Shown: positions 2,485-43,643 of the stretch, piece by piece
Layout: every line of letters starts with the position of its first letter
How positions within the stretch are numbered: position 1 is the stretch's first letter
Assembly (NCBI GenBank): GCA_014904985.1
Contig: MU128972.1
Span: 190,223-254,222, forward strand
Direction: 5' to 3'
Source of the DNA: Hydnum rufescens UP504
Lineage: Eukaryota; Basidiomycota; Agaricomycetes; Cantharellales; Hydnaceae
Length of the DNA stretch: 64,000 nucleotides
Translations under genes and position numbers: made by a program
Notes under the pieces: model-generated
Seen by the model: only the letters and a program-made list of their open reading frames with translations
Databases searched by the model: none
What the model was told of the DNA's origin: nothing

Positions 2485-3629
2485 CAGGCCATCCTGTAAA
2501 CTGGATACATCAAACATGATATCCTACCAGGTAAATTCATACATCAAGCTGGTATAATACCACATACCATTGTCATATATCCATACCACAGATGATATAT
2601 CATAACTGAAGGTGGTAGTGATGCATCATGTATGGTAACATAATGTATTATATAATCAATATTATGTAAGCACCCATAAAAGGCAATACACCATAAGTAG
2701 CTCCTTACATAACTTATTTCTATATTTGGAAATATTACATAATCACTTCCATATTTGGCAATATTACATAAGCATTTTTCCTTATTTGGAGTATTACATA
2801 ATTACTTCCTTATTTGGACATATTACATAATTATTTCTATATTAGGAAGTATTATGGAATATTTCCATATTTGGAAGTATTACATAAGCCTCCATATTTG
2901 GACAAATTACATAAGCTACTATATATGGCTATATTACTTAAGCTATATTACATAAGCAATATGCAGATGCATAGGCAATATGCATGGGGGGGGGATTGGG
3001 TGAAAGCCTTGAGCCTTATATGTTCCTCAGAATGTCTGTGTGCAGTTTGGTCCCAGTTGTGGGACGTTTGAGTATCACTCAATACTTAAACATCCCACAA
3101 CTGGGACCAAACTGCACACAGACATTCTGAGGAACATATAAGGCTCAAGGCTTTCACCCAATCCCCCCCCCATGCATATTGCCTATGCATCCGCATTTTG
3201 CTTATGTAATATAGCTTAAGTAATATAGCCAAATATAGTAGCTTATGTAATTTGTCCAAATATGGAGGCTTATGTAATACTTCCAAATATGGAAATATTC
3301 CATAATACCTCCTAATATAGAAATAATTATGTAATACTTCCCAATATAGAAATAATCATGTAATGTGTCCAAATAAGGAAAATGCTTATGTAATATTGCC
3401 ACATATGGAAGTGATTATGTAATATTTCCAAATATAGAAATAAGTTATGTAAGGAGCTACTTATGGTGTATTGCCTTTTATGGGTGCTTACATAATATTG
3501 ATTATATAATACATTACATTACCATACATGATGCATCACTACCACCTTCAGTTATGATATATCATCTGTGGTATGGATATATGACAATGGTATGTGGTAT
3601 TATACCAGCTTGATGTATAAATTTACCTG
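2485..3629. repeat. large palindromic fold-back element, main part
   Basis: The left arm (2485-3075) and right arm (3082-3629, continued at 11839-11881) are near-perfect inverted copies around a short loop at 3076-3081. Each arm contains about nine imperfect copies of a 25-28 bp AT-rich unit (type CATATTTGGAAATATTACAT). Outer ends are CAGGCCATCCTG...CAGGATGGCCTG. The two arms differ at only scattered bases, so the palindrome is young or kept homogenised. It has no coding capacity: open frames inside the arms are mirror images of the AT-rich repeat. An obvious flanking target duplication was not found. It was later split by the 8.2 kb element at 3630. Confidence 0.85.
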
Positions 3630-3781
3630 CAGGCTGGTCAGTCATATGGGGGACCTAATTTAGGTACCACTTTCAGGGCAGAAAATGGTACCTAATAGGT
3701 CCCCCAGACCTTATGGCCGAAATCAGGCGATTTCAATTCAGTTTTTTGGCCATCTGTTGGCCAATCCATGGCTGTGCTAGA

Positions 3782-3860
3782 TTATATGCTTATTTATTAT
3801 TATTTGTTTATTTATTATTATTATTATTATTACTACTATAATTATATACATATTATACTA
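3782..3860. repeat. AT-rich microsatellite (TTATTA)n
   Basis: A run of TAT/TTA triplets lies just inside the left end of the 8.2 kb element. It is simple sequence with no coding value. Confidence 0.8.
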
Positions 3861-4036
3861 TATACCTATTATCCCCCCTGGGGTCTGCCACCACAGGGGG
3901 GCATGGTTTATGTGGATCATGGTCATGTGCCCGCATTTACCCACAGTACCCTCCACAGCGAGTGCAGTCAGGGGCTGGTTCCTTTTGGGCACTCCCTTGA
4001 GAGGGTTGGTCTTCATTTGTGGGGCTTCATTCATGG

Positions 4037-5403
4037 TGTTGGAGGGATAAAACCCTACTATGTATATTCTGCTTCAGGACCCAACTACCTCCTCAAATGA
4101 ATCCAAATTATTCAATTCCAATCCTTCAAATACCTACCATTCCTTTGATTGCCATATGACATGGATTTCAATTCTCCAAGACCCATTTTATTTCTCTTTC
4201 CTCCACCTTGTACATGAGACATTTATTTGTCCATCTCCAAGTCTTCAACAGACTACCTCAAATTGTAGTTACTTCAAGCCCAGCCAACTGTGGCTCAGGC
4301 AATTCAACTTGCCCTGTTTGTTTGGTACCCAATCCATTGTGCATTGCTCATTGCCTCAGCGGGGATATACGAGTCCCAATTATATAATCAAGATTGCCTA
4401 ATCCTTTGGATCCAACTCACGGATTAGTCACATGTTAAATAGGGGCTATTCCCATACTCTCAAGGAGTATTTCACGAATATCTCCCTCATTTTTGATCGG
4501 ATCGACTCGGCAAGATGGCACACAGAAAGCTACGATCAATACCTATCCAACGGTACCACATATGTGTTTATCGGATGCGAACTGCACCCTCCAGGTCGAT
4601 TTTACTTCATGCTCCACACTATCCTTCAGTATTTTGCGAATATCTCCACCAGTTTTGATCTGATTCGTTAGTAACAACCACCCCTGGAAAGACGCTGAAA
4701 ATCCGCATCGAATGGTACCAAGGGAAAAACGAGCGGATTAGAACTCGGCTTTCTGAAATTTAGTCTCCCCATGTCTCATTTCACTTTTACCTCTGCTTTT
4801 CTGATTATTAAAGGCAATTATGGTTCTGGAACCCTATGTCCGATGGAGGGTACGTCCAGGGAGACCAGTTCCACCTTTCCCCAAGGGATTCTGTTCAGTA
4901 GGAGAGGAGGGATACCTTGGTTAAGCCATATTCCCCCATTCTGACTTGTTAATTGAATATCTCCTTCAGTTTTGAAGCCTTTGACTCAATCTCTTTTTCA
5001 TCATTTTTGCCTTAACCCCACCTTTCTGCTGGTTACCATGGCATTATTCCAAGATGTATATTAAGTGCAGGGGATGCGAATTTTGATTGATTTCCCCCTC
5101 ACCCTCAGTCTCTAAAGTCTTGAAGGACAGCTGTTGGCACCAGGGTGATTTCCAGACCATATCTAGTATTGTTCACACTTTGGATAGGCCCTCAAGAGGA
5201 GAGCCATCAGTGTGATTTCTGAATCAAATCATCCATTCATTCATTGTTAGAGCAAGCCCGCCCTAGCAAGACAAATTCTCAACCTCAAGGCCTTTCATTC
5301 AATCGGACCTTAACCTACAGATTGACTCTGTGGCCCTCTCCTTTCATCCTTGATTCAACAATCTTGGACTGTGGCATAGTCTCTTAGGAGATTCCTGCTT
5401 ACA
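4037..5403 (+). mobile_element. solo LTR, copy A (TGTTGGAGGG...CTTACA family)
   Basis: This 1,367-bp LTR begins TGTTGGAGGG and ends CTTACA. It is flanked by the 4-bp duplication ATGG (4033-4036, 5404-5407). Three other copies are present: 15321-16686 (inverted), 20483-21836 and 25665-27012. The body contains two related internal blocks of about 180 bp (GCGAATATCTCC..., CGGATGCGAACTGCA...). No internal retrotransposon sequence lies next to it, so it is a recombination-derived solo LTR. The 113-codon frame it contains recurs only because the LTR recurs and is not a gene. Confidence 0.9.
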
Positions 5404-5747
5404 ATGGTTATCATTCATGGCGTCTTGTTCGGTGGGTTTCTGCTTGGGGGCTCACGGGGGTTCTGGTTCAGGATCTACAGAAATAAATAATGAAATATTA
5501 GTACAACAGTAATGCAGCGCAAAAAGAGCAGCTTATGCTGCTCTTTTTGTGCCACAAGACTAAGAAATGAAATATAAAACATACCTTGTACCTTGCACCC
5601 ACAGGTGTAGGGTACTGGGGCCGTGTACATTGGTGCGTACATATGCCGGCTTGTACACACGGTGTGGAAGATAAAAACATCCAGTATCAGAAAATGCGAA
5701 ATTACACAACTTCCAGTCATTGGACGATCACATGACCAATTATGAGA

Positions 5748-7440
5748 TTAATTATGGCTATGTGCAGCAACCAAATTCATTTTATAACTCCGTCAGTTTT
5801 GATCGGAGAGGTACGCCCATATAACGCTTAGAAAGCTATGATTCACACCTTTTGAACAGTATGAAACACAAGTTGAACGGACCAAAACTGCACTCTCCAG
5901 GCCAATTTTATTATTAAAATCCAGGATTTCCAGTAAAAAATGAATACCTCCATCAGTTTGCATTCAATCCTCTCGGAACAACCGCGTCTAGAAGGATATG
6001 AAAAATCCGCATCCAATGGTACTAAGCACACGAAGAACAGATCAAAATTGAACTCTACAGAATGATATTACTATCAGAATCAACACCCATCAGTAAAAAA
6101 TGAATTTCTCTATCAGTTCACATCCGATCTGCTCAGAACCACCGCACCCAGAAAGCTGTTAAAAATCCACATCTAATGGTACCAAGCACACCTATTATGG
6201 ATGCAAACTGCTGTCTCTGCATCGAATCCCACACCATGCACTTGTTCCTTTTATTAACCAGTAACAAAAAAACACCTTAACCACTGGACTATGCTCAGAT
6301 TAATCTCCAAAACCTGGAGATGTCCCTTAATTTCGCTTCCCATGAGCCCCAAAACACATCACAAGATCAATGACATCATGCTCCAACTACTCCACAAGCT
6401 CAGCAAACTAGTGACATCATTTCCTTTATGAATCCTTTTGTTCTCTTTATGAATGACATCACTATGACATCACTATGACATCACACTCTATGAATGACTC
6501 AGCTATGACTGCATTATGACATCATTTCTTTATTACTCTTTTGTTCTACTCCACTATGACTCCCCCATGACATCACTATGATCTCATAGCTTTATTACTC
6601 TTTTGTTCTTGCTCCATGCACAGCCACCTTCAGATAGGTATATAAGCTAGCAGATTTTCTTGTTCCCCTCCATCTCCTCACTCTGGAAATCAACCACTGT
6701 CAACTACTGTCTACCATTCTGCTTAATATCTAAAGAACTGTCTATCTAAAGCCATCTGGAGCTAAGTCATCTTCAAGGTTGTTGAGACCAAGCTACTGGA
6801 AGTCATCTACATGAAATACTGAAGCCAAGGATAGTTGCAGAACCTAAGGTTAGAGTTGCTGGACATCCAAGGAAAAGGTAAGCATAAAGAAATACAAGCC
6901 AGGAAAGAAGATTGAAGCATACTAACCAAACTAACCAAGCACTGACCATTCCATAACCCACAGATATCCGCATTTTGACTAGGAGGACGTAAACAAGGAC
7001 ACACAAATATCAGTAAATGGACAAACACAACACGAACATGTATAAGCCTTTCCATAAGCATCCCAGACGTATAAGCCTTCCTATAAGCATCCTCCACATA
7101 TAAGCCTTTCTATAAGCATTCCATATGATGTATAAGCCTTCCTATAAGCATCTACGATATATCATTGACTATTGCTAGTCCATATCACATTCCATTCTCC
7201 AATAAACACATACATATCTTGCAGAGAGTGATCAACCATTGAAGTGAACCAACCCATTTGAATAAACAGAAACACAGTCTCCTATCTACACACTGGCTGA
7301 ACCAGATTTTGATTTGACAGTCATCGGAGCTCCCAACCCTTCTTCTATAATGGCAGTTCATATGGCCCCCCCATCGTTCGGGCGTCAATAGGCGGGGTTA
7401 GGGGGTTCTTTGTCGGTATTCGTTCGTGAGGGGAGTTGAA
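5748..7440. repeat. LTR-like block with TATA box and several tandem repeats
   Basis: The block sits inside the long last leftward exon. 5770-6240 holds three diverged units related to the body of the 1.37 kb LTR family (ATCCGCATC.AATGGTAC motif). 6435-6600 has about eight TATGACATCA words, close to the CRE/ATF site. A TATA box (TATATAAG) is at about 6640 and is followed by a pyrimidine-rich start-like region. 7041-7160 has four imperfect 27-33 bp repeats containing TATAAGCCTTCCTATAAGC. It is probably a second, older LTR. Its exact ends and a target duplication could not be fixed. Confidence 0.5.
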
Positions 7441-7554
7441 ACCTACAAAATATTATTTTTAAATTAGTTAAGAAATAAGGACCACGCAAAAAGAGCAGCT
7501 TTCACTGCTCTTTTTGTGTGGCTGTAGGTACTGGGGGGGGGGGTGGGAACTCAC

Positions 7555-7815
7555 CTGGTATAGAACCACACACCTGCTGTTGCGGATGTGTGATTCCTGG
7601 GGCATTATTTGGCCTGGTTGCGCCCTCATTTGGCATGGTGCCATATGTTGCGTCATTGGTGCGTTGGCATTTGGTGCGTTGGCATGGCGTGTTGGTGTGT
7701 GTCGCGTTGGTGTATGTCGCGTTGGTGTATGTCGTGTTGCCATGTTGCATTGCCATGTTGCATTTCCATGCATCGCATTGCTGTTTGGGCTCTCATCATT
7801 GGACGAGGCCTCAAT
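7555..7815 (-). CDS. open exon of the leftward module array, unknown protein
   Basis: This 261-nt exon lies between two introns with consensus splice sites and is open for all 87 codons in phase 0. It reads IEASSNDESPNSNAM at the start and RCVVLYQ at the end. The middle has short TPTRH and NAPNA repeats. The sister exon 7921-8142 begins IEAWSKAQ and ends CVVLYK in the same phase but contains several TGA stops. In the rightward array, module ends such as HHRCVVLYK keep the same phase. The conserved C-terminal peptide is forced by the hairpin DNA, so translation is not proven. I do not recognise the protein. Confidence 0.4.
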
Positions 7816-8289
7816 CTAAAATAAATAAAGAGATTAGTAAAATATTCCAAAGCAGCGCAAAAAGAGCAGCTTTCGCTGCTCTTTTTGCATGGCTGTAGCT
7901 ACTGGGGGGGCGGGACTCACCTTATATAGGACCACACACCCACCATGGCAGGTGTGTGGTTCGTGGGGCCCTCATTTGGTGCATTGCCATATGTTGCATC
8001 CTCATTTGGTGCATTGCCGTATGTCACGTTGTTTGGTGTGTTGCCATGTGTCATGTCATTTGGTGTGTTGCCATTTGGCGCATTGTCGTTTGCGCCCTTG
8101 TCACTTCATGGGTTTTCGCTGTGCTTTGGACCAGGCTTCAATCTAGAATAATAAAAGATGCATTAGTATAAAATTTCAAAGCAGCACAAAAAGAGCAGCT
8201 TTCGCTGCTCTTTTTGCACTGTTGTATCTACTAGAAAAAATACTCACCTTGTGACCACACACCTGCAGCAGCGGGTGCGTGGTCATGTG

Positions 8290-9050
8290 GTTGCCTTTTC
8301 AGGCAGTTGCTTGTTGTGGTTGTGGAGATAGGAAGCAAGATGCAGATTCAACACTGGCAATTGCTGATACTCAAGAAGTGCCCAAGTGCTGGCGCTGCAA
8401 GCACAGTACACAATAGTACCAAGCATGTATATTATAAATAAATACTATATAATAAAAAATTGTCCAGGAAAACCCAAAGAAGAGGATGTAATGAGTCAGA
8501 GGTCAATAAGGCATGAGATTGCTAATTACAGAGTGGATTGGGCCACTTCTACGCATCAGAATTGGCCCAAATTTGAATATAGTAGTGTTATATATACACT
8601 CTACATGGGTGATTAATTATCTTGGATGATTTTCACATTTTCAATTTTTCATGCCTTCAATTCCCTATTTAGGGAATTGAAGGTGTGAAAAATTGAAAAA
8701 TGTGAAAATCATCTGAGATAATTAATCACCCATGTAGAGCGTATATATAACACTACTATATTCAAATTTGGGCCAATTCTGATGTGTAGAAGTGGCCCAA
8801 TCCACTCTGTAATTAGTGATCTCATGCCTTATTGACCTCTGACTCATTACCATCCTCTTCTTTGGGTTTTCCTGGACAATTTTTTATTATATAGTATTTA
8901 TTTATAATATACATGCTTGGTACTATTGTGTACTGTGCTTGCAGCGCCAGTGCTTGGGCGCTTCTTGAGTATTGGCAATTGCTGGTGTTGAATTTCGAAC
9001 TTTACGCAGCCACACCCAGCAAGCGACTGCACAACCATGACACAACAGCA
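8290..9050. repeat. central palindrome between the two module arrays
   Basis: Two arms of about 370 bp mirror each other around CCCTATTTAGGG (about 8663-8674). The outermost shared elements are the first module on each side, so the leftward and rightward arrays are arranged head to head. Arm divergence is a few percent, by eye. It could act as a divergent promoter or simply be the seed of an inverted duplication. Confidence 0.8.
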
Positions 9051-9110
9051 ACAACAGCAGCAACAGCTGCTGCAGCTGCTGCAGCTGCTGCAACAGCAGC
9101 AGCAACAGTG
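9038..9110. repeat. CAG/CTG trinucleotide repeat
   Basis: CAACAG and CTGCAG triplets run just upstream of the first rightward hairpin. A short frame starting ATGACACAACAG reads as poly-Q with Leu and stops before the donor at 9179. The left arm of the palindrome lacks this expansion, so the repeat arose after the arms formed. Confidence 0.75.
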
Positions 9111-9149
9111 CATGACTGTGACCGCATGACCACGACCACATGACCACAC

Positions 9150-11490
9150 ACCCGCTGATGCGGGTGTGTGGTTATAAGGTAAGTTTTGTCTCAGTAAATA
9201 CAATACTGCAAAAGAGTAGTGCAAGCTACTCTTTTTGTGCTGCCATGAATTTTTATACTAACGTAGCCTCTATTCCTCCAGATCAAAACCAAAACAACAA
9301 ATGACAGGCCACCCAATGAGTGAGCCCAGGAACCACACCCGCTGTGGCAGGTGTGGTTCTATTTAAGGTGAGTCTCCCCCCTAATAGATGCAGCCGTGCA
9401 AAAAGAGCAGCAAAAGCTGCTCTTTTTGCGTCGCTTTTAATTTTGTAACTAATTATATTTTATTCTAGGTATTGCCATAAATGAAGACCCAAGCAGCAAG
9501 CCCGCCCACAAAGGAGACCCACAAATGAAGAGACAAACCACACACCTGCTACTGCGGGTGTGTGGTTCTATCTATACAAGGCATGTAACACACCCCTGAC
9601 GACACAAAAAGAGCAGTGAAAGCTGCTCTTTTTGCGGTGCTTTTAATTCTTTTTAACTAATGATTTTTTATTCTAGGTACAGTATTGTCACAAATGAAGA
9701 CTGAAGACCCATGAAGCAAGCCCCCCACAACAATAACACACCCGCAGAGGGGACCCCCAAATGATGACATGCCACATGAAGAGATGAACCACACACCCAC
9801 TTCAGCGGGTGTGTGGTAATTTTAAGGTGAGCATATAACCACGCAAAAGGAGCAGCATGCACTGCTCCTTTTGCATGGCTTTTCTTTTTTCCTTTTTACT
9901 AACATATTATACATTATTTTAGGTTGTCTGAACCCACAACCCCACCAAGCAAACACACGAGAACAGCAACAGACCTGCCAAACGAAACCCGCAAGAGTTC
10001 AAACCCCCAACATGACAACCAAGCCCCATACTGAGTATGAACTGCATGACTGCAGTACAAACCAAGGACCACACCCACCAAAGTGGGTGTGGTCCTACAA
10101 GGTTTTTATTTTTTTTATTTGATTTCTATATGTACAATGACACAAAAGGAGCAGCGTAAGCTGCTCCCTTTGTGTCACTTTGAATTTTTTTTACTAATCA
10201 ACATTCTCACTCTAGGATCTGAACCGAGACCCACAAACAAAACACCCACCCAAGTGATGACCAGCCCCCCATACAGAACCAAGTATGCGACCAGGGTGCA
10301 AAGGGAGTACCACACACCCACTTCGGCAGGGATGTGGTACTAGTTCAGGTGAGTCCCCCCCCCTCAATAGATACTGTGGTGCAAAAAGAGCAGTGAAAGC
10401 TGCTCTTTTGCATCACTTTTAATTTTTTAATTAATAAATCTTTACTCTAGGTATCACCACAAATACAAATGAAGACCCACAGTGCAACCCCCACCCCCCC
10501 CGAATGATAACATGCCCATGAACGATGATGCACCAAACGAAGACATGGGACGATGCCAAAACCGGTACGAACCACACACCCACCATCACAGGTGTGTGGT
10601 TCTATACAAGGTAAGTAATGCACCCCCAAGGGCACAAAAAGAGCAGCCTTGCTGCTCTTTTTGCATCCATTTTTATTTTTAACTAACAAATTCATTATTC
10701 TAGGTTCTAGGTTCTTGCCTGAACTACCACCAAACAAAACCCCCCCCCCTTTGGAAATGACAATGCACCCACCAACGGAGAGTCCCAAATGCGACCAGCC
10801 AAACAAAACCCAGAAACAGGGACGCACAACGCAAGGTCCAGGGACCCTGGACGAACCACACACCTGCTTCAGCAGGTGTGTGGTAATTTCAAGATAAGTA
10901 GGATCGCGCAAGAGGAGCAGTGTATGCTGCTCCTTTTGCATGGCTTTCTTTTTTTATTTTTTCTTTACTAACACATTATTTATTCCTAGATTTTCACCTG
11001 AGCCTACCACCTGCACTAACCCCCAAATCAAAGACCCGCAACCCTGCCAAAGACAGCCGTGAGAATGGACGCCCACAAACCCCCAAAATGATGCCCAGCC
11101 AGTACAAAACAGTACCACATACCCACTTCAGTGGGTGTGTGGTACTACAAAGGTTTTTTTTTCAAATTTCTATATGTGCAATGATGCAAAAGGAGCAGCA
11201 CAAGCTGCTCCGTTTGCATCACTTCAATTTTTTTTTACTAACATACAGTATGATTCTAGGATCCAAATTGAAACCCCCGAAATGACAACCTACCCCAACA
11301 GTGAAGTGCCAAGCTGCACCCCCGACCACACCCACCCAAGTGGGTGTGGTACTACTACATAGTTTTTTGTTTTTAAGTTTCTACAGATGGTACCACACCC
11401 GCCTAAGCGGGTGTGGTGCCACTAGATAGTTTTTTTTAAATTTTATTTTAAATTTCTACAGATGGTACCACACCTCAGTGAGTGTGGTGA
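9150..11490 (+). other. rightward array of hairpin intron-exon modules (9 introns plus degenerate units)
   Basis: Plus-strand introns are 9179-9281, 9368-9468, 9581-9676, 9827-9922, 10102-10215, 10349-10450, 10611-10703, 10894-10989 and 11153-11259, all 93-114 nt. Donors are mostly AAG followed by GTAAGT, GTGAGT, GTGAGC or GTTTTT. The one at 9581 is GC (GCATGT) and the one at 10894 reads ATAAGT. Acceptors are TTCTAG-like, and several have a full TACTAAC branch site. Every intron has the GAGCAGC...GCTGCTC hairpin. Every exon ends in a CCACACACC...GGTGTGTGG hairpin 5-12 nt before the donor. Exons vary from 86 to 190 nt. After 11260 the modules shrink to hairpin plus a short T-rich stretch (11320-11490). 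No long frame survives across the modules. Confidence 0.75.
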
Positions 11491-11838
11491 CTTTTTAAAT
11501 AAATAAATAAATAAAAATAAACAACTCAGTAAGAATAAAACAGAACTGCCAAATTAAACCCACTGACTGGGGGTAGCAGTGATAATAAATAAATAAATAA
11601 TTATAAATGGAACATGTTATCCCCAATAAGTCCATATGGCCTGCTGCAAGTCTGAGATTCTCTAAGTCCCAGTTTTGGCCAATTTTTGGCCATTTCAGCC
11701 AATTCTGGGCCAGGAGGTGAAATTATAAAAATGGCCATTTTGGCCGAAATAGTGATGGGACCTACTTAGGTACCATTATCTGCCCAGAAGTGGTACCTAA
11801 CTAGGTAGGCTTAGATGACTGACCAAGGTGTTTACCTG

Positions 11839-11881
11839 GTAGGATATCATGTTTGATGTATCCAGTTTCCAGGATGGCCTG
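11839..11881. repeat. distal end of the fold-back element
   Basis: This 43-bp piece is the reverse complement of 2485-2530. It belonged to the right arm before the 8.2 kb insertion. The DNA to its right is the gag-protease relic that hosted the fold-back element. Confidence 0.85.
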
Positions 11882-11885
11882 TCCA

Positions 11886-14346: not shown

Positions 14347-15320
14347 TTGGCAGGATGGTCCCAACGGGTCTCCACTATGGGGGAAGGGCTACTGAGTGCT
14401 ATGTGGACCCCTACTAAAGCCTGTTCCATGTCACTGCAGACTCAAGGACAAGAACCACCCCGGACCCCTGCATTACAGTGGATTGCCCAGTCTCCCCCAG
14501 GGGGAGGCCATCAGGCCATGGCCCCTGAAGAGGTGGCTCCAAGTACGCTGCATACAGACTTCTTCATCATGAAAGCTAACAATGAGTACATGGACGTCAA
14601 CAACTACCTCTATAGGGATGCTCCCTTCCTCCCCACTACCCAATGTCTCCCTCAAGCCCATCACCATTTCACCCGCCTAATGGAGGAATCCATCACCCCC
14701 ATGGCTATACTAAAGGCCCTGGGCCCTGTCCTACCTCTGGAGCCCACGATACGCATCCTCCCAAGGGAGCTAACGAACAAAACGGTGCCCACATCATCTC
14801 CGGGCTCAGGACGCGTGGGGATGAGTCCTAGTCCTCCCCATGTCTCGACACCCAGCCCCCAAGGATCGAAGGGTGATTCTGGAAGGCCCGACAGCCCAGG
14901 AGGAGGGGAAGAACTGGATAACCTACCAGGTGGGAGCAGGGGACCCCCACCCCTGCCAGAGCCCCTGAGTGGTGATCCGGGGCCTGGAAGGGGACCAGAC
15001 CCAGGGCCACAAGGCCCTAGAGGGCCACCTGTGCCCCCGAGACCCCCTGGACCCCAGGGCCTTCAGGGCCACCAGGGCCACCGGGGCCTCCAGGAGGTGC
15101 TGGTGGTTTCTTCCAGCTGCTGCAGGGGCTTATATGGGATAACAAACTCAAGTGGTCGGTCATTCCAGAATGGGACGGGGACCTGGAGACGGCCCTAGAG
15201 TGGATCCTAGCCTGTGACAACCTCACTAACCTTGGCCTGGAAGTCGCGAGACTTCTCCCCATGATAGCATCATCTTGATTTAGAGGTGCCATAGCCTCGG
15301 CATGGCGAGCTCACTCTCGT
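14347..15320 (+). pseudogene. gypsy-like relic, proline/glycine-rich linker and start of Gag core
   Basis: A 283-codon frame (14347-15198) contains MKANNEYMDVNNYLYRDAPF and then a strongly Gly/Pro-rich, collagen-like stretch at 14930-15100 (GPRGPPVPPRPPGPQG). A frame change leads into the Gag core: FFQLLQGLIWDNKLKWSVIP, EWDGDLETALEWILACDNL and, after a TGA, FRGAIASAWRAHSR. This order (disordered, PG-rich, then WDGD...W) fits Agaricomycete gypsy Gag proteins. A solo LTR interrupts the gene at 15321. Confidence 0.65.
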
Positions 15321-16686
15321 TGTAAGCAGGAATCTCCTAAGAGACTATGCCACAGTCCAAGATTGTTGAATCAAGGATGAAAGGAGAGGGCCATGGAGTC
15401 AATCCGTAGGTTAAGGTCCGATTGAATGAAAGGCCTTGAGGTTGAGAATTTGTCTTGCTAGGGCAGGCTTGCTCTAACAATGAATGAATGGATGATTTGA
15501 TTCAGAAATCACACTGATGGCTCTCCTCTTGAGGGCCTATCCAAAGCGTGAACAATACTAGATATGGTCTGGAAATCACCCTGGTGCCAACAGCTGTCCT
15601 TCAAGACTTTAGAGACTGAGGGTGAGGGGGAAATCAATCAAAATTCGCATCCCCTGCACTTAATATACATCTTGGAATAATGCCATGGTAACCAGCAGAA
15701 AGGTGGGGTTAAGGCGAAAATGATGAAAAAGAGATTGAGTCAAAGGCTTCAAAACTGAAGGAGATATTCAATTAACAAGTCAGAATGGGGGAATATGGCT
15801 TAACCAAGGTATCCCTCCTCTCCTACTGAACAGAATCCCTTGGGGAAAGGTGGAACTGGTCGCCCTGGACGTACCCTCCATCGGACATAGGGTGCCAGAA
15901 CCATAATTGCCTTTAATAATCAGAAAAGCGGAGGTAAAAGTGAAATGAGACATGGGGAGACTAAATTGCAGAAAGCCGAGTTCTAATCCGCTCGTTTTGC
16001 CCTTGGTACCATTCGATGCGGATTTTCAGCGTCTTTCCAGGGGTGGTTGTTACTAACGAATCAGATCAAAACTGGTGGAGATATTCGCAAAATACTGAAG
16101 GATAGTGTGGAGCATGAAGTAAAATCGACCTGGAGGGTGCAGTTCGCATCCGATAAACACATATGTGGTACCGTTGGATAGGTATTGATCGTAGCTTCTG
16201 TGAGCCATTTTTCCGAGTCGATCCGATCAAAAATGAGGGAGATATTCACAAAATACTCCTTGAGAGTATGGGAATAGCCCCTATTTAACATGTGACTAAT
16301 CCGTGAGTTGGATCCAAAGGATTAGGCAATCTTGATTATATAATTGGGACTCGTATATCCCCGCCGAGGCAATGAGCAATGCACAATGGATTGGGTACCA
16401 AACAAACAGGGCAAGTTGAATTGCCTGAGCCACAGTTGGCTGGGCTTGAAGTAACTACAATTTGAGGTAGTCTGTTGAAGACTTGGAGATGGACAAATAA
16501 ATGTCTCGTGTACAAGGTGGAGGAAAGAGAAATAAAATGGGTCTTGGAGAATTGAAATCCATGTCGTATGGCAATCAAAGGAATGGTAGGTATTTGAAGG
16601 ATTGGAATTGAATAATTTGGATTCATTTGAGGAGGTAGTTGGGTCCTGAAGCAGAATATACATAGTAGGGTTTTATCCCTCCAACA
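15321..16686 (-). mobile_element. solo LTR, copy B, inside the gag relic
   Basis: This 1,366-bp inverted copy of the TGTTGGAGGG...CTTACA LTR is flanked by the 4-bp duplication TCGT (15317-15320, 16687-16690). It closely resembles copy A over its full length. The gag frame resumes on the far side (WHKLEDWVLKHYLGDSW), which confirms insertion into an existing gag. Confidence 0.9.
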
Positions 16687-29050: not shown

Positions 29051-30269
29051 GCCCGACTCTGATCGGCAACTTGGAGGCATCAATAGTACTATACCTAGTC
29101 CTTGGTTCTCAGAGCAACCAACTGTGTAATTATAGGTGGGACCCCTGAAAATGGCTGAACGACGGAGTTGATGGCTAAGCAGTCATTGCAGGTGATCCCA
29201 CCCTGTCGAAAACATATATACCGAAACTCGTCCTGTCCCGGGTGCTCGCTCAGACATCCCAGATGTGCTCTCAAAGGCTCCCTCAGCTTCTCCTGACAGT
29301 CCAGGGCATTTCCGGTCTTATAGTGATTTGGTCCATCATAACCAGCGTAATGATTTTTGTCCATCCTATGCTTCCCCATCTCAGTCCATCTAGTCTAGCC
29401 CATGAATCTGCAACAATCTTCACCACACAATACTCACCACAACCCCCGTAACCACTCTCGGCCTACCTTTTCTCATTCCTACCCAGCTCCTGGGGCACTT
29501 TCGACACATCCGTCACCATTCCATTATTCGGAATATCCTCCTCATCCTAGTAAGGTGTCCACATCTTTTGCGCATTCCGCTCAAGCACCAATCCGAGTCC
29601 TACCTCACCCCTTCCTCCTCCCTTGTCAAAACCCTGAAGCATTGTTTCGATACAACTCACAAACAGCAGTTGAGTGGAAGTTCTGCATGTTTATTGCCAT
29701 GTGCGACAAGATAAGTGGCACAAATCTGATCACAAGCCCACTTGTGACTGATTGCGGAGCAGATCCCCCGGTGTGCGCCAGAATAGCCAACCGTCCCAGG
29801 TTACCCATGCCTAGGAGAATTCCTGTCCACCATATCGTGATGCCGTGCAACTGAAACACCTCGATCACTGAGGTATGCCCTGTTGGCACTCTTTTTGTCA
29901 CACCGAGGCTGATGCTTCTGTCATACGCTCACCATAGATTATTGAACATTGTGCAGCATTAACAGCCTTTGTGTGACACTGGTAACCATTCCTCAGCAGC
30001 ATAGCACTGTACCATTGCTGATCTCGTTCCTTCTGATACCTCAGCTTCCCTTAAACGTGAAGGCTGAGAAGGCCAGCACGCATTTCCTTCAGTGTTGGAA
30101 TTATCCCAAATGGTTCACCAAGCCACTCTTGTGGCCATAGCTCCTGGATGCATTGTGAGTGGCCTGGAAAAATGAGGAGAATGCTGTGGCTAATGCCCCA
30201 ATCTCATTGACTGGCTCAAAAAGATCCTGGGACATCGTTTTTAGAGGAGACCCAAGCACTGCCATTGCC
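29051..30269. other. unassigned sequence with broken reading frames
   Basis: A plus-strand frame at 29402-29854 is Ser/His/Pro-rich. Minus-strand frames at 29095-29379 (LGCLSEHPGQDEFRYICFRQ) and 30260-30101 (MSQDLFEPVNEIGALATAFS) look more protein-like, but neither is recognised. The latter runs into the assembly gap. Confidence 0.3.
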
Positions 30270-31156
30270 NNNNNNNNNNNNNNNNNNNNNNNNNNNNNNN
30301 NNNNNNNNNNNNNNNNNNNNNNNNNNNNNNNNNNNNNNNNNNNNNNNNNNNNNNNNNNNNNNNNNNNNNNNNNNNNNNNNNNNNNNNNNNNNNNNNNNNN
30401 NNNNNNNNNNNNNNNNNNNNNNNNNNNNNNNNNNNNNNNNNNNNNNNNNNNNNNNNNNNNNNNNNNNNNNNNNNNNNNNNNNNNNNNNNNNNNNNNNNNN
30501 NNNNNNNNNNNNNNNNNNNNNNNNNNNNNNNNNNNNNNNNNNNNNNNNNNNNNNNNNNNNNNNNNNNNNNNNNNNNNNNNNNNNNNNNNNNNNNNNNNNN
30601 NNNNNNNNNNNNNNNNNNNNNNNNNNNNNNNNNNNNNNNNNNNNNNNNNNNNNNNNNNNNNNNNNNNNNNNNNNNNNNNNNNNNNNNNNNNNNNNNNNNN
30701 NNNNNNNNNNNNNNNNNNNNNNNNNNNNNNNNNNNNNNNNNNNNNNNNNNNNNNNNNNNNNNNNNNNNNNNNNNNNNNNNNNNNNNNNNNNNNNNNNNNN
30801 NNNNNNNNNNNNNNNNNNNNNNNNNNNNNNNNNNNNNNNNNNNNNNNNNNNNNNNNNNNNNNNNNNNNNNNNNNNNNNNNNNNNNNNNNNNNNNNNNNNN
30901 NNNNNNNNNNNNNNNNNNNNNNNNNNNNNNNNNNNNNNNNNNNNNNNNNNNNNNNNNNNNNNNNNNNNNNNNNNNNNNNNNNNNNNNNNNNNNNNNNNNN
31001 NNNNNNNNNNNNNNNNNNNNNNNNNNNNNNNNNNNNNNNNNNNNNNNNNNNNNNNNNNNNNNNNNNNNNNNNNNNNNNNNNNNNNNNNNNNNNNNNNNNN
31101 NNNNNNNNNNNNNNNNNNNNNNNNNNNNNNNNNNNNNNNNNNNNNNNNNNNNNNNN
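30270..31156. other. assembly gap (887 N)
   Basis: Undetermined bases. Reading frames that span the gap are artefacts. Confidence 1.
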
Positions 31157-32256
31157 GGTAACCGACACCCATTTCCAAGACAGGATGGTCCTACTCATTG
31201 CAGGATTTTCAGAGACCCTGGGATCAAACGGCCTAGGGGGGGCAGGTGTGCTTAGCTCTAGGAGGTGGCCACCATGCAGTTGGTGGCATGGGCCCCCCAC
31301 TGTTGGGACTGGATGATCCCATGGCAGCAACATGACATTCGGGTGGTGGTTCCACAAGGAAGGAGCCAGAGTGTGTTGGCCTAAGCTGGTGAACAACATT
31401 GACAGTTCGTCTGTTTTTCGGGCAATTTGGCGCAATATCACGTGTTATCAAGTGCCTCAATGTCCTGAACCAGGAGAGTTAATGTGGCCGGTGGGCAAGG
31501 CATTACTGTGAACAGTATCACACCTTGCTGGCTGTGGGGGATTTCCAGTGCTTGCATATCAACAGCTCCCTCATTTAGGACTACACTTTTAAAGTAGTTC
31601 ATGGCCTTTGCCATACTGTCAATAATGATCCACACAGGGCATGCACAGGTAGAAGATTAGGTGGAATCATTTTCACTTGCCATTTCTTTCTGGACGTTGA
31701 CCTCGGCATCTGTCCGAGTGTCCCGAATGGGTGGCTCATTATTGTACACACCTACTAGTGACAAATCGCCAGGGCTCGCAGTGTTGGGTCCAAATAACTG
31801 CTGTGCACGGATGGCAGCACTGGACTTGCCTGTCCGTTTACTGGCTGGATTGGGTACACTGCCACCACGTTGGCACTTACTGGACAGCTCTGTACATACT
31901 GTGGGAATCAACATATGAGTGGCAAGTACGATGGCCAAAAGACAGAATTAATGACAAGTTTCATACATGCTCCATCCACTTGGATTTTCTGCAAACTTGG
32001 CCAAGCGCTCAATAAGCACACTCTTGTTCCCTCCCATAGGGAGGTTGTGCTCAGTAAGGAGTGTCTTCAGCTGCACCACTGTCAAAATTTGCCTCCAGGA
32101 CAGTTGCATTAGTTTTGTTAACCACCCATGGCACTAGGCTGCATGATGCTGGGCGGTGGGACTCACGGGTCATGGTAGACAACATAGCCCTGCTCTTCAC
32201 TGGCATGTGCCTTCTTTAAGGGGAGCCTAAGCTCATTTGGGTCTACTGAGACAGCC
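31157..32256. other. unassigned; minus-strand frames of unknown protein
   Basis: Minus-strand frames 31938-31657 (KRTGKSSAAIRAQQLFGPNT) and 31635-31438 (IDSMAKAMNYFKSVVLNEG) are in the same frame with a stop between them. They may be exons of one decayed gene. No family recognised. Confidence 0.3.
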
Positions 32257-33385: not shown

Positions 33386-34620
33386 TGTCCGGGGGGGTGT
33401 TTGTAAATGTGGGGGAAGGGAATTATTACCTTCAAGGGGGGTTAATTTGCAAGGGGGGTTTGTTAGGGGAGTTGGTAACTCCAGAGGGGTATTACCAGCC
33501 CAGGGGGGGTATTACCAGCAAGGGGGGTAATTACCAGCAAGGTGGGGTATTTACCAGCAAGGAAGGGGGGGTGAACCCATAAGGGGTGGGCAAGGGAAGG
33601 GGGTTGTTACCAATAAGGGGGGTGGGGGGTATTACAGCAAGGGAAGGGTGGTGTTACCCAGTAAGGGGGTTGTTACAGCAGGGAGGTGGGCAAGGGAGGG
33701 GAGGTGGCAAGGAGGGGGTGTCACCAATAAGGGGGGGTGGGGGGTATTACCAGCAAGGGAAGGGGGGGTTTGTTACCCAATAAGGGGGGGGGTGTACAAA
33801 TAAGGGGGGGGGGTGTTACCAATAAGGGGGGGGGTGTTACCAATAAGGGGGGGGGTGTTACCAATAAGGGGGGGGGGTGTTACCAATAAGGGGGGGGGGT
33901 GTTACCAATAAGGGGGGGGGGGGGGTGTTACCAGCAAGGGGGGAGGTGTTACCAATAGGGTGGGGGGGGGTATTACCAGCAAGGGAGGGGGGTGTTACCA
34001 ATAGGGGGGGTATTACCAGCAAGGGAGGGGGGTGTTACCAATAGGGTGGGGGGGGTATTACCAGCAAGGGAGGGGGGTGTTACCAATAGGGGGGGGTATT
34101 ACCAGCAAGGGAGGGGGTGTTACCAATAGGGGGGGGTATTACCAGCAAGGGAGGGGGGTATTACCAGCAAGGGAGGGGGGTGTTACCAATAGGGGGGGGT
34201 ATTACCAGCAAGGGAGGGGGTGTTACCAGCAAGGGAGGGGGTGTTACCAATAAGGGGGGGGTGGGGGTATTACCAGAAAGGGAAGGGGGGTGTTACCAAT
34301 AAGGGGGGGGTATAACCAGCAAGGGGAGGGGGAGTGTTACCAATAAAGGGGGGGGTATAACCAGCAAGGGGAGGGGGAGTGTTACCAATAAAGGGTGGAG
34401 TGCTACCAATAAGGGGGGGGGGCATAACCAAAGGGGAGGGGGAGTTTACCAATAAGGGGGAGGGTATAACCAGCTAACCAGCAAGGGAATGGGGTGTTTA
34501 CCAATAAGGGGGGGGGGGTATTACCAGCAAGGGAGGGGTGTTACCAGGAAGAGGGGGTTGTTGCCAGCAGGGGGGGTGGGTTGTATTAGCAAGGAGGGGG
34601 GGGGGAGCAGGGGGGGCACT
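33386..34620. repeat. G-rich minisatellite, predicted G-quadruplex DNA
   Basis: About 1.2 kb of 18-24 bp units of two alternating types, GGTGTTACCAATAAGGGGGG and GGTATTACCAGCAAGGGAGG. Runs of four to thirteen G recur every 10-20 bases on the plus strand. Copy 2 (45545-45930) has the complementary C-rich array but is only about 0.4 kb, so array length is variable. Any reading frame through it is a repeat artefact. Confidence 0.9.
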
Positions 34621-38698: not shown

Positions 38699-40088
38699 CT
38701 AGTGGATTCCATTGAAACCCATCATGTCCATGAATGTATAGAATTTGTTGGCAGCAAGAGGCTTAGTGAGAATGTCTGCTGGCTGTTTATCTGTGGGGAT
38801 GTACTCAAGGGAAATAATTCTGTCCTCAAGCTTTTTGCAAACAAAGTGATGGCCGACTTTGAAATGCTTCATCTGCTCCGAGAATCTTTCATTCTGTGCA
38901 ATGGCAATTGCCAACTGATTATTGATATGGATGGTAGTCAGGCTTGTCATTGGGTGGCCCAAGTCACTGAGGAGATTGTGGAACCAGATTGCATCATGTG
39001 TGCCTTGTGTCGCTGCAATGTACTCTGCTTTGGTACTCGAAATAATGACACTTGACTGTTTGTGGGAAGTCCAGCCAACGGGAGCACCACAGAGCAGCCA
39101 CAGAGTTCCTGTGATTGAATGGCAATCTGCAGGGTCTCCTGCCCAATCTGAGTCAGTGAATCCACACAGTGTGTCTGACTTTGAGCCATCAAAGGTTAGG
39201 CTCACTCCGGCAGTCTTGACAAGGTAACAGTAGATCTGTTTAAGGGCAGTCAAATGTTCAGGTCCGGGGGTAGATGCATGTCAACTGAGATAGCCAACAG
39301 CAAAAGCAAGGTTGGGTCGAGTACCAATCATTGCATACATAACCAAGCCAAGCATTGACTGATAGAATTGGACATCAGTCATAGGTATGTCTAATTTCTT
39401 GAGTTTCAATTTTGTAGCCATTGGAGTAGTCATGGGTCATGCATCAGCCATACTGAAATGCTCAAGTATGTCGTGGGTGTAGGAGTCCTGCAAGATTGTG
39501 ATGGTGTGTTGATTTCAATCATGTACAATCTTGATACCAGTGTACCAATGGAGGTCTCCCATATAGTGCATGTCAAAGGTTCCAAGGAGGTTGTCTTTGC
39601 ATGTAGGAAGTGAGGGTTTTGGGATGGCAAGCATGATATCATTGATGTGGGCTCTGAGTATTGCAAGTCTGTGCTTATCACACTGAGTGAAGACAGCATA
39701 ATCAGATTCTGTCCTTTTCCACCTGACTTTTCCAAATTCATTTCTCATCTCTAGGTACCATTCACATGCAGCTTATTTAAGTCCATAGAGGCTATGCAGT
39801 AACTGCCAAACCATGCCAGGCTTTGGTGGAGTGAAGCCATTGGGAGTGTCCATGTAGATGAGTTCTTTAAGTATGGGGTTGAGAAAGGCTGATTTTACAT
39901 CGAAATGAACAAGTTCAAGGTCATGTTTGGTGGCAAGTGTGAGGATTACTAGGAAGGACTGTTTCCAGATCATTGGGGCATATGTCTCGAAGAAGTCTAC
40001 TCTGGGAACTTCAGTATAGCCCTTTGCTACTACATGAGCTTGATAGCTGGTGATGTTGCCACTGGAGTCTTGTTTAATTTTGAATACC
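38699..40088 (-). pseudogene. copia reverse transcriptase (C-terminal part) and RNase H
   Basis: Reads leftwards from the solo LTR: TQWVFKIKQD, VDFFETYAPMIWKQSFLVIL, HDLELVHFDVKSAFLNPILK (catalytic Asp of the DVKSAFLN motif), WQLLHSLYGLK. Then comes the normally YVDD-containing motif, here AHINDIMLA, in which Tyr and the first catalytic Asp are changed. RNase H follows with CGFTDSDWAGD, SSTKAEYIAATQG and TDKQPADILTKPL, keeping its acidic residues. The protein ends near 38699, just inside the 3' LTR. Stops or frame changes occur near 39772, 39510, 39440 and 39285. The altered YVDD box alone would abolish polymerase activity. Confidence 0.85.
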
Positions 40089-40093
40089 CACTG

Positions 40094-40962
40094 TGTAGAA
40101 GGGTAGGAAACTTAGGGTAAGAAAATGCCTAATTTTCATTATTTGAACCTTAGGTCCTCAGCTAAGCTACCTATATACACAAGCAGACTTGGAGTTGGAC
40201 AATGGACAGAAACCGGGATGACTAAGAACTGACAAGTCATTTACTAATGAAAATTATGTCACCTGAATCATGTCATTGCCTAGACTCCCTAGCAAATCTC
40301 ATAAATAGATCAAGGACCTTCCAGGCTGGGTGGAGCCTTCCATAATAGGAAGAGGCCAGCCAGATCCAGAGCCCATCTAAAAATAAAAATCCATACCATG
40401 TGCTACTCAGGAGTTCTGGGCCAGCATATAAAAGCCTGTACATTACACCCCCAATAATAATAATTCTTTCCCTCTTACCACTACAAGCCAGACAGTGCTT
40501 TGTGAAGCTGTGTGAAGGTATTCCCTGGTCAACACCTAGACCTTGTAAGATTTCTGTGGACTCAGCTTAACAACCAGCTGGCACAAGAAAGACTGAATTC
40601 TGAGACACCTGACACCTACCTGAAAATCTGAGGATAGCCAAACCCCTCAGTTTCTGACTCATACCCATCTTGAGGACTGGCAGCTCCTCTCATCTACCAA
40701 CCAGCAACTGCTTGTGGACAGTATAATCCCCTCTTCTGAGCCCTACCCATTTGACTAATCCTGAGACAGTCAGTCTCAACACTCTTATTGCTAGTACAGA
40801 TAGCTTTCTATCCTAGTACTGTTCTAAAAAGCTTACAGGCATTCCCATCTATATTGGAAGGGAAGTACCTGTCTCACCTTGGCATATTAAGGCAAGGTTT
40901 TGAGCTCTAAACTCAAATCCTCCCTTAGGTTTCTCACATCCTATATAGAAGAAACCCCTACA
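40094..40962 (+). mobile_element. solo LTR inserted in the copia reverse transcriptase
   Basis: This 869-bp sequence starts TGTAGAAGGGTAGG and ends CCCCTACA. It is flanked by the 5-bp duplication CACTG (40089-40093, 40963-40967). A TATA box (TATAAAAG) is at about 40429. It is unrelated to the 1.37 kb LTR family. The reverse transcriptase frame continues on both sides. The plus orientation is inferred from the TATA box. Confidence 0.9.
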
Positions 40963-40967
40963 CACTG

Positions 40968-41260
40968 ACTGCCAACAATCTGTCAGTCTGCAGGTTTCTC
41001 TACCCACTCAAAAGTTTTACTCTTGGCCAGGGCATCCATTTCATAGATGCATGCTTCCATCCAATGGTATGCTTCGGACAATGCCATGGCCTGCTTGTAA
41101 CTCAAAGGTTCATGTGGCATGGCCAATTTAGCATGTTCATTGCCCACTGAAACAGCATCCATAGGATTTGAGCTCTTCAGCATTGAATTGGAATGACTAT
41201 ATGAGGTAAGGGTGAGTTTCAGGTTTTCGTCATCATGCATTGTCAGGATCAAATTGACAT
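40968..41260 (-). pseudogene. copia reverse transcriptase, N-terminal end
   Basis: An open frame of 89 codons ends PLSYKQAMALSEAYHWMEAC, then YEMDALAKSKTFEWVEKP, the conserved entry into copia reverse transcriptase. It joins TQWVFKIKQ across the solo LTR. Confidence 0.8.
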
Positions 41261-42086
41261 TTGCTTCTGCTTAAGGACTTACCCATTGGAGTATCATTCT
41301 TCATCAACTCTATCATATGGCGCCTACTTCCTCAAATGCTCTTGTCTCCTCTCTCCCTCCATTCACTAAGGGGGTTATTGTCATCCTTGCCATTATTGGC
41401 ATTTCTCTTATTATTATTGCCCTCATTCTATTGGGCCTCAACCAGTGGGCTATGGGCTGGGTAGTCAACCAGTGGCAGCATTGGCACCCTTGTCAGCACC
41501 TGTCATTCCCTCACTCCCCATGTGAGTCCATGGAGTTGCCAATCCAGACTCCCCCTCCTCCTCTGCCCCCAGTCCCTGAATCCACACCACCCATCCCAAT
41601 CCATACTCCATCCACATCATTACAGCCCTTCAACACTTTGGACACCTTTGGAGTACCCAGGCATACACTGCCTTGGAAGTACATATGCTAAGGGGGATAC
41701 ATATGGAAGTTGGGGCATAGCCATGTGGAGGTGTGCACAGGATTCATAACATGGCTGCATCAGCTTAGTGAGGCTTAGTGATGGTGGCTGTGGAGGCTGA
41801 CTGATGGCTGTGGAGCTGCATTCTAGGAGGATCCAGATGATGATGAGCTGGCATTCTAGGAGGATCCAGAAGGTTATGGAAGATGGTGGAAGGCTCTGGA
41901 AGGCTGGTGGCTGTGTGCAGGAAATAGTATTTATAGCCCTTTGCAGTTGGGGGATCACCAGTTTCGATCTCTCAGGATTCCCACTGCTGATAGTGTGTGG
42001 TTAATTAATCTCTTTCCTCTTTCTGTTTGTGGCTTCAATGGCAGTGTCGCCCTGACATGCATAGGTTTGATTACCATGCATCCTGA
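41261..42086. other. unassigned block between copia integrase and reverse transcriptase
   Basis: No copia homology is visible. 41814-41875 holds a duplicated GCATTCTAGGAGGATCCAGA unit. On the minus strand, CTATAAATACTATTTCC at about 41935 resembles a TATA box. The plus strand holds a short membrane-protein frame. It could be another insertion, but no terminal repeats or duplicated target were found. Confidence 0.4.
41317..41691 (+). CDS. putative small single-pass membrane protein, antisense to copia
   Basis: A 124-codon frame begins MAPTSSNALVSSLPPFTKG, followed by one strong hydrophobic helix (VIVILAIIGISLIIIALILL), a Trp/His-rich segment (NQWQHWHPCQ) and a Pro-rich tail. It lies opposite to the copia genes. 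Upstream 41240-41316 shows no obvious promoter. It is either a chance frame or a captured fragment of a cellular gene. I do not recognise a family. Confidence 0.3.
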   Translation: MAPTSSNALVSSLPPFTKGVIVILAIIGISLIIIALILLGLNQWAMGWVVNQWQHWHPCQHLSFPHSPCESMELPIQTPPPPLPPVPESTPPIPIHTPSTSLQPFNTLDTFGVPRHTLPWKYIC

Positions 42087-43330
42087 TCAACAGAGTACTG
42101 GTTCTTTGTTAGGTAACAAGTGTGTGGATGGTTGGGATGGTGGAGCAGCAGTTGAGGATTTGAGTGCTGGTGAGTCAGTGACTTTATCAACAGGATTTGT
42201 CTTCTGATCATTATCCTCATGCATGTTATTCTCCCCCCCTTCAACTGAAGATCCAACTTCAATTTTGACATGTTCCGTTACTCCCATTCCCTCATCAAAT
42301 ATCACATCGCGAGATTCAAAGAAGTGTTTAGATTGGCGGTGGTAAGCTTGGTAGGCTTTCTTGGATTCCAAATACCCCAAGTAAATGCATTCCATACTAC
42401 ATGCACCTAATTTGTCATGATGTTTCACAGGAATTTGGACATGGGCTTTGCACCCAAATACATGAAGTAGCGATAGAGTCAGTTTCTGGCCAAAATAGGC
42501 CTCATGAGGGGTGATACTACTGGGCAAAGCTCGTGATGGTGTTATATTATGAATATGTACTGTGTGTTGGACTGTGTGGCCCCAAAAGGCCTTCAAGAGT
42601 CCAGCATCTTGGAGTAGGGACCAAGCATGTCCCATGATATATCCATTTGCATGTTCAGCAACACCATTCTTGGGAGGGGTATCAGGATTCATGAGTTCAT
42701 GCTTTTGTCCCTTCTCTTTGAGATAAGCTTGAAACTCTTTTGAACTATACTCCCCCCACCATCAGTGCATAGGGCTATGACATGTTGTCTGGTTTCATTT
42801 TTGGCATGCGCAACAAACAATTTATATTCTGCAAATGTGTCGCTCTTGTGCTTAATAAGTGAAACACTAATTCGGCAAGACTTGTCATCAATGAATAGTG
42901 CATAATATTGTTTGTTCAATGGTGTGAGTATCAGGGCTGATCCCCAGATGTCTGAAAATACATGGCCAAGTACTGTGTCAGCACACATTGATGTTTCCTT
43001 TGGAATAGGTGTCTGAGTGTGTTTACCCTCAACACAAGGGCTACAGATGGCTGAAGGTTCCTTTGAGTCAGAGGGAATCTCCATTCCTTTGACTAAGTCC
43101 TTATTAACCATGTGGCAGATGGAGTTGTAATGGATGTGTCCAAGTTGATGATGCCAGATTTCAATGGATGCATGTGAAGATAGAGATCCTATAGCAAGTC
43201 CATACTGACTTGAGGTGTTGACAGTACTGATACATGCTCTTTCCTCAGCATAGACTGAGACTTGCAGTGTATATAGGTTTCTGTCAATAGGGGCAAGCCC
43301 TACAACCTCATTCTTTGAGTCTCAGATGAT
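42087..43330 (-). pseudogene. copia integrase
   Basis: Integrates the cDNA copy into the genome. The N-terminal zinc-binding region (about 43230-43000) keeps GHIHYNSICHMV and CSPCVEGKHTQTP. The core has GHVFSDIWGSALI (first Asp), VIALCTDGGG (second Asp) and, after a frameshift near 42700, PPKNGVAEHANGYIMGHAWS (Glu). The C-terminal part has EAYFGQKLTLSLLHVFGCKA and ECIYLGYLESKKAYQAYH. The D-D-E residues survive. Two overlapping frames (43111-42689 and 42692-42087) are one former gene. Confidence 0.85.
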
Positions 43331-43406
43331 GCACTCATTCGCAGTGAATTGGGTCAAGCACCCAGAGCAGCCAAGTTGCCACACAGAGAGTAAATTCCTG
43401 TTTAGG

Positions 43407-43640
43407 TCAGGGGATGTGTAAGACAGATTGGAATGCTCCAGGAATGGTTCTCCCATTACCAACAGCCATCTCCACCATAATATGACCTTTGCCCACTGCT
43501 TCTATATAGTGGTGGTCACCTAGCCAGATGTGGCATGGTGGATGGATTTTCCAGTAGGTTGTAAACCAGTCATGGTGTGAAGACATGTGCATTGATGCAC
43601 CAGAATCCATGATCCACCCTTGACAATACCTAGGCTTTAC
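43407..43640 (-). pseudogene. copia protease
   Basis: Aspartic protease that cleaves the polyprotein. WIMDSGASMHMSSHHDWF carries the D-S-G active site and the copia-type context (H..WF..Y). The frame reads into GHIMVEMAVGNG and SVLHIP. It lies between the Gag zinc knuckle and the integrase, as expected. Confidence 0.85.
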
Positions 43641-43643
43641 AAG

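Follow-up and report, generated by a model that had tools for sequence, protein, structure and literature searches.

Divergent arrays of predicted intron-exon modules, each with two conserved hairpins, in a superfamily of non-autonomous DNA transposons of Hydnum rufescens

In a stretch of 64,000 nucleotides (nt) of the agaricomycete Hydnum rufescens UP504, namely positions 190,223 to 254,222 of contig MU128972.1 (assembly GCA_014904985.1, forward strand) and called the window hereafter, a non-autonomous DNA transposon carries two head-to-head arrays of predicted intron-exon modules, with one type of hairpin within the intron and another one at the end of the exon. To judge from the sequence, we give a probability of roughly 0.55 to the reading that this copy belongs to a mobile superfamily with two divergent, non-coding and spliced transcripts, which would start from a palindromic promoter, and that the arrays would have grown by module duplication. 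The module arrays are filed here as a newly seen variant of non-autonomous DNA transposons. The feature extends far beyond the window: in the genome covered (63.2 Mb, 539 contigs), the core of the intron hairpin, AGAGCAG-N(2-10)-CTGCTCT, occurs at 5,033 exact places in 63 Mb (5 for the reversed control) and the terminal motif of the transposon is present 550 times (0 for the reversed control).

The predicted introns and the exon hairpins of the window are distributed as follows.

8143 to 8247, minus strand: predicted intron L1 with hairpin (TTCTAG acceptor ending at 8143)
7816 to 7920, minus strand: predicted intron L2 with hairpin
7443 to 7554, minus strand: predicted intron L3 with hairpin
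5475 to 5584, minus strand: predicted intron L4 with hairpin
9179 to 9281, plus strand: predicted intron R1 with hairpin
9368 to 9468, plus strand: predicted intron R2 with hairpin
9581 to 9676, plus strand: predicted intron R3 with hairpin, donor GCATGT
9827 to 9922, plus strand: predicted intron R4 with hairpin
10102 to 10215, plus strand: predicted intron R5 with hairpin, weak donor GTTTTT
10349 to 10450, plus strand: predicted intron R6 with hairpin, branch site TTAATTAAT
10611 to 10703, plus strand: predicted intron R7 with hairpin
10894 to 10989, plus strand: predicted intron R8 with hairpin, non-canonical donor ATAAGT
11153 to 11259, plus strand: predicted intron R9 with hairpin, weak donor GTTTTT
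9143-9172, 9332-9357, 9537-9566, 9788-9817 and 10068-10093, plus strand: right-array exon hairpins 1-5
10309-10338, 10571-10600, 10855-10884 and 11114-11143, plus strand: right-array exon hairpins 6-9
11325-11350, 11392-11417 and 11467-11488, plus strand: three terminal exon hairpins with no intron hairpin following
8254-8283, 7931-7960 and about 7566-7595, minus strand: left-array exon hairpins
5588-5615, minus strand: degenerate exon hairpin of L4, read from the sequence

An earlier note on this DNA had described about 13 introns of 93-114 nt in two divergent arrays, all with the same type of hairpin, and the window coordinates bear this out, with four predicted introns on the minus strand, nine on the plus strand and a stem of the type GCAAAAAGAGCAGC-loop-GCTGCTCTTTTTGC (GAGCAG/CTGCTC) in 13 of 13. 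The statement that every exon ends in a shared hairpin holds for 12 of the 13 exons, where a stem of the type ACCACACACCCGC-loop-GCGGGTGTGTGGT (ACCACAC/GTGTGGT) is clear just 5' of the donor, but not for L4, where it is degenerate. Likewise, the uniformity ascribed to donors and branch sites extends to most introns but not to the donors of R3, R5, R8 and R9 nor to the branch site of R6, as listed above. Exons do vary in length, from 86 to 261 nt for the inner exons of the transposon copy C65. The span of 5475 to 11490 assigned to the feature fits the arrays but comprises a foreign repeat (5658-7353), and the carrier is larger (3630-11830). In C65, exons and introns also differ in composition, the T fraction being 0.117 in exons vs. 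0.365 in introns for the right array and 0.089 vs. 0.355 for the left array, and the same trend from T-poor exon to T-rich intron is found in three diverged arrays. Besides, the acceptor is often followed at once by a GT that opens the exon (TAG|GT), with T in second place in 17 of 22 types; recursive splicing at these places was considered and rejected, as the regenerated donors GTATTG, GTACAG and GTTGTC look weak.

The splice signals were assessed over modules oriented from the side of the exon hairpin alone, in order to avoid circularity. Among the intron hairpins with sufficient flanking sequence (348), an exon hairpin was recognised on neither side of 71 and on both sides of none; once 98 of the 348 had been dropped for want of an exon hairpin or for duplicate context, 250 distinct oriented modules were kept, which fall into 42 types less than 75% alike and into 26 types less than 65% alike. 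A GTRNGY donor lies 3' of the exon hairpin in 29 of the 42 types, compared with a mean of 2.5 after shuffling of the letters, and a branch site with acceptor lies 3' of the intron hairpin in 39 types, compared with 11.1 after shuffling and 4 on the mirrored antisense; for the strict form of the branch-acceptor pair, the figures are 25, 0.8 and 0, respectively. Among the 26 more diverged types, donors are present in 17 (1.9 when shuffled) and branch-acceptors in 22 (6.7 when shuffled, 2 on the antisense). Because these counts are far above the shuffled ones and, for the 3' signals, also above the antisense ones, the predicted splice signals are kept across diverged modules and are not coincidental, which agrees with the earlier view that they are no chance parts of a satellite. 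In modules with a recognised donor (183 of 250), the exon hairpin ends 8-9 nt 5' of it (quartiles) and the intron measures 92-112 nt (5-95%). From these signals, we infer transcription, splicing by the host and function of the introns. Two other candidates were rejected, namely a simple satellite, since splice signals are enriched and Tandem Repeats Finder shows no array of module period, and a stwintron, each module having one donor, one branch site and one acceptor with no internal intron.

Both stems are conserved as structures, covarying over diverged modules. For these alignments, 20 of 278 modules were discarded as antisense, followed by 2 of 32 representatives with no plausible acceptor and, for the exon stem, 3 of the remaining 30 with no recognised exon hairpin. 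Over 30 module types (29 distinct rows), 95.6% of the cells of the intron stem are paired and both sides have changed at 10 of 18 pairs (35 such cells), and over 27 types (26 distinct rows), 89.5% of the cells of the exon stem are paired, with changes on both sides at 6 of 15 pairs (18 cells). These double changes include A-U to G-C, A-U to U-A, A-U to C-G and C-G to G-C, and sliding either structure lowers the paired cells to 32-55%. None of 500 shuffles reaches any of five measures for the intron stem, and none reaches three of the five for the exon stem, where the number of pairs changed on both sides is reached by 21 of 500 and the further pair types by 26 of 500; such counts are not probabilities because related rows are not independent, and the score of the exon stem is lowered because rows with a short stem are misaligned in its alignment. 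Action of the stems at the RNA level is likely because of the order and strand of the signals, of the switch in composition and of stable tetraloops on the sense strand, GNRA loops being found in 14 of 42 types in sense vs. 1 of 42 in antisense and UUCG in 6 of 27 exon loops. Of note, one module folded as RNA gives -63.8 kcal/mol (z = -9.5).

The carrier is a DNA transposon, apparently non-autonomous, assigned to those with terminal inverted repeats because of its inverted-repeat ends, dispersed copies and target duplications. Its parts in the window, for which no strand applies, are given below.

3630 to 11830: copy of the non-autonomous DNA transposon, recognised by its ends and inverted repeats
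3622 to 3629: left target duplication TTTACCTG, read from the sequence
11831 to 11838: right target duplication TTTACCTG, read from the sequence
4037 to 5404: foreign repeat (1.37 kb, high copy number) that interrupts the transposon
5658 to 7353: foreign repeat (1.7 kb, high copy number) that interrupts the left array
8337 to 9002: palindrome of 666 bp that separates the two arrays and may serve as a bidirectional promoter

The window copy has the termini 5'-CAGGCTGGTCAGTCA and TGACTGACCAAGGTG-3' and subterminal inverted repeats of about 70 bp that are about 84% alike, and four further copies measure about 5.1 to 5.5 kb. An exact target duplication, three times of 7 bp and three times of 8 bp, flanks six of the 15 copies with both ends read, namely the window copy, C65, C17b and three of ten end pairs whose partner ends were joined by distance and orientation only; the other nine copies have no exact duplication and have possibly recombined. 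A tandem two-hairpin module inside a transposon, as the earlier note had proposed, is supported. Among 40 candidates scored, the right array is matched over its full or nearly full length ten times at 92-100%, once by the window itself, besides many partial and diverged matches. Five of the right-array copies differ by only 0.4-1.2% in columns without CpG, which means that the family spread recently, and by 9-44% in CpG columns, pointing to decay since. This CpG-specific decay, which suggests cytosine methylation of the copies, is probably due to deamination of the methylated cytosine. At least six transposon copies sit in modules of other arrays, some of them inside hairpins or at a donor (L010:4208-4251, L028 near 2628, L056 near 48, L076, L063 and L069), and a preference of the transposon for its own arrays or palindromes as targets is possible.

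No long reading frame is found in the element. Two longer end-pairs, whose frames were not submitted to a Pfam search, show no obvious transposase, and one of the two has a long N run. The KDZ domain has at least 154 matches in this genome and none in 14 control genomes, and a visual comparison with the first 100 of the 550 terminal motifs showed no KDZ match inside an end-pair.

Beyond the window, six stretches picked from the first 100 core matches listed, on contigs C1 and C2, were opened. All six include one or more complete modules, in which exon hairpin, donor, branch site and acceptor are present, and truncated modules also occur in L055 and L057. All modules that were read belong to arrays, including the one at the isolated pattern match C2:7610, in a sample that is small and leans to kin, most loci having been chosen by similarity to the window transposon. 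The core is also matched in 21 stretches of a viral collection and in at least 118 of a prokaryote one, which we guess to be probably terminator-like stems and not relatives.

Between the two arrays, the arms of the palindrome are 93-94% alike and each carries TATATATA, at 8589-8596 and 8742-8749 as read from the sequence. A short start peptide, similar on both arms, is encoded there as well (MLGTIVYCACSASAWALLEYRQLPVLN in C65; L010:1254-1330), and peptides like it seem, by eye, to be encoded in L029 and L080.

Within the explanation preferred here, a transposase encoded elsewhere would move the superfamily, and the palindromic core, with its TATATATA motif per arm, would start both divergent non-coding transcripts. 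Each module would run from a T-poor exon through the exon hairpin, the donor, the intron hairpin and the branch site to the acceptor, and its intron would be removed by the host spliceosome. Located between donor and branch site, the intron hairpin would sequester about 40 nt of the roughly 100-nt intron and give donor and branch site the distance that they have in a short intron, with an effective length of 60 nt, as is usual for introns in such fungi. The exon hairpin covers position -24, the expected site of an exon junction complex; a structure at this site can hinder deposition of the complex, and the spliced RNA may in this way be kept unmarked for decay. Growth of the arrays via tandem module duplication is suggested because modules resemble each other and vary in number. 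The transposon may benefit from RNA accumulation that depends on introns or from an escape from silencing. The former is proposed for the intron rows because of the intron dependence reported for Cryptococcus neoformans, where, in the part of the study drawn on here, most of the genes tested accumulate far less mRNA once their introns are removed, with intron number and position acting cumulatively (PMC3744415). A further-reaching version, which is held tentatively and with odds clearly below even, is that the body of the superfamily would be a self-amplifying row of spliceosomal modules, whose hairpins set the effective intron length and mask the exon-junction-complex site, whose transcripts evade surveillance and which might provide host genes with introns.

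Several observations weigh against spliced, RNA-level modules mobilised in trans. Weak or non-canonical donors occur in some window introns and 13 of the 42 types have no GTRNGY donor in the tested window. The exon hairpin spans position -24 in 182 of the 183 modules with a recognised donor, a coverage almost forced by its length and place. A spliced 669-nt query revealed no intronless copy among the matches listed (of 293); two long matches taken as candidates proved to be deletions of the exon hairpin with the intron kept, and the other long ones were judged by their span only. The exon hairpin is lost beside an intact intron in L081 and L082, a loss that preceded their separation because both share it, and copy L038 has no palindrome arm on one side; since these parts are missing there, the existence of a copy does not strictly depend on either the exon hairpin or the arm. 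Wobble asymmetry, considered as proof of RNA-level selection, was rejected because the excess of G-U pairs over A-C mismatches is not significant in the controlled sets, with 17:12 for the intron-stem slot consensuses (13 of 32 groups being left out because they had no more than two members) and 29:20 over the 42 types; the ratio is 35:17 over the intron-stem rows, 122:109 among recent changes and 17:16 for the exon stem. Besides, partial checks yielded neither an autonomous partner nor an identified product.

Some of these points would suit hairpins acting as DNA, where cruciforms, or the binding of transposase or host proteins, would promote duplication and insertion, with the splice-like signals as mere passengers. 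Covariation alone cannot separate RNA from DNA, the controlled wobble test is not significant and at least six copies sit in module sequence, some of them inside hairpins; against this, donor, branch site and acceptor persist in diverged types far above the controls, the composition switches at the splice sites and GNRA loops are biased to the sense strand, and we regard this explanation as unlikely. Thousands of similar stems and a 666-bp palindrome with so similar arms could instead point to small or structured RNAs, released from hairpins or palindrome by splicing and used for silencing or its evasion. To this we attach a low probability, as Dicer substrates are usually longer than these stems (about 13-18 bp) and a search of Rfam gave 29 matches at E up to 1 but none above the gathering score.

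It is improbable that the arrays are what remains of a protein gene with several exons, once part of an autonomous transposon, in which the reading frame has decayed. The similar start peptide on both palindrome arms would fit such a relic, as would the long open stretches, which arise because the exons are poor in T. However, protein-coding arrays were rejected as neither the right array of C65 nor three diverged arrays (their donors chosen by a simple rule, so that some junctions may be off) retain an open frame over their spliced length, exon lengths share no common phase and six window frames have no Pfam match at E 0.01. As for a kinship with introner-like elements, which the earlier note mentions and in which the module would be a mobile intron spreading into host genes, the many similar structured introns with standard signals do recall it, but the ends of the mobile unit are transposon ends far from the splice sites and the modules read are all in arrays, in the small and similarity-chosen sample mentioned above; this origin is considered very improbable.

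Among known systems, introners or introner-like elements, for which van der Burgt et al. 2012 is a cited reference, are one of the closest. As described in the parts of the sources used for the comparisons below, introners move as one intron each, in many cases with the ends of a transposon, and share with the present modules the abundance of similar introns, the standard splice signals, the hairpins of fungal cases and an origin from non-autonomous transposons (PMC9860276). The element is no introner because its ends are not splice sites: the mobile unit of an introner is an individual intron in host genes (PMC9860276), whereas here a transposon encloses introns and exons in whole rows. The sister stwintrons of Hypoxylaceae are likewise multiplied, sequence-similar fungal introns with predicted hairpins, but they are nested, lie in genes and form their stems from terminal inverted repeats (PMC9024468), whereas the introns predicted here are single, with the hairpin between donor and branch site. 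Regarding the carrier, KDZ transposons have been described from Agaricomycotina, among which Kyakuja has 5'-CA..TG-3' termini and 7-bp duplications, as well as encoding a transposase and being reported without terminal inverted repeats (PMC12730594). The present element likewise has CA..TG termini and the KDZ domain is abundant in this genome, but the element differs from Kyakuja by its inverted ends, its duplications of 7 or 8 bp and the fact that a transposase was not found in it. The 8-bp target duplications also recall hAT and Zisupton (PMC12730594), to which kinship is not assignable because no transposase was found here. The part of a Laccaria bicolor transposon survey used here mentions no such arrays (PMC3411680), and literature searches, judged by titles and abstract openings, found no description of them.

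The window includes other repeats. The 1.37-kb repeat inside the transposon (4037-5404) has a further copy downstream (15320-16686) and about 40 copies among those scored, most of them 93-98% alike, and the 1.7-kb repeat (5658-7353), possibly a solo long terminal repeat, has about 40 copies among those scored at 91-96% and also cuts a module in L057. A fold-back palindrome extends over about 2485-3632 and 11828-11885, the transposon being apparently inserted in its right arm. On the minus strand, 38699-44546 contains frames like a Ty1/copia polyprotein, and a relative carries PF00665. G-rich tandem repeats of about 45 bp occupy 33486-34578 and 45588-45837 in opposite orientation, and a run of N of about 0.9 kb is located at about 30245-31160.

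If spliced, the modules would constitute a large natural set of paralogous introns sharing a hairpin between donor and branch site as well as a second hairpin at a near-fixed distance 5' of the donor, which would make it possible to test the role of RNA structure in intron length and in exon-junction marking, together with the use of introns by a transposon to pass RNA surveillance. The superfamily may also be a reservoir of structured introns for host genes and, as such, would bear on the origin of introns.

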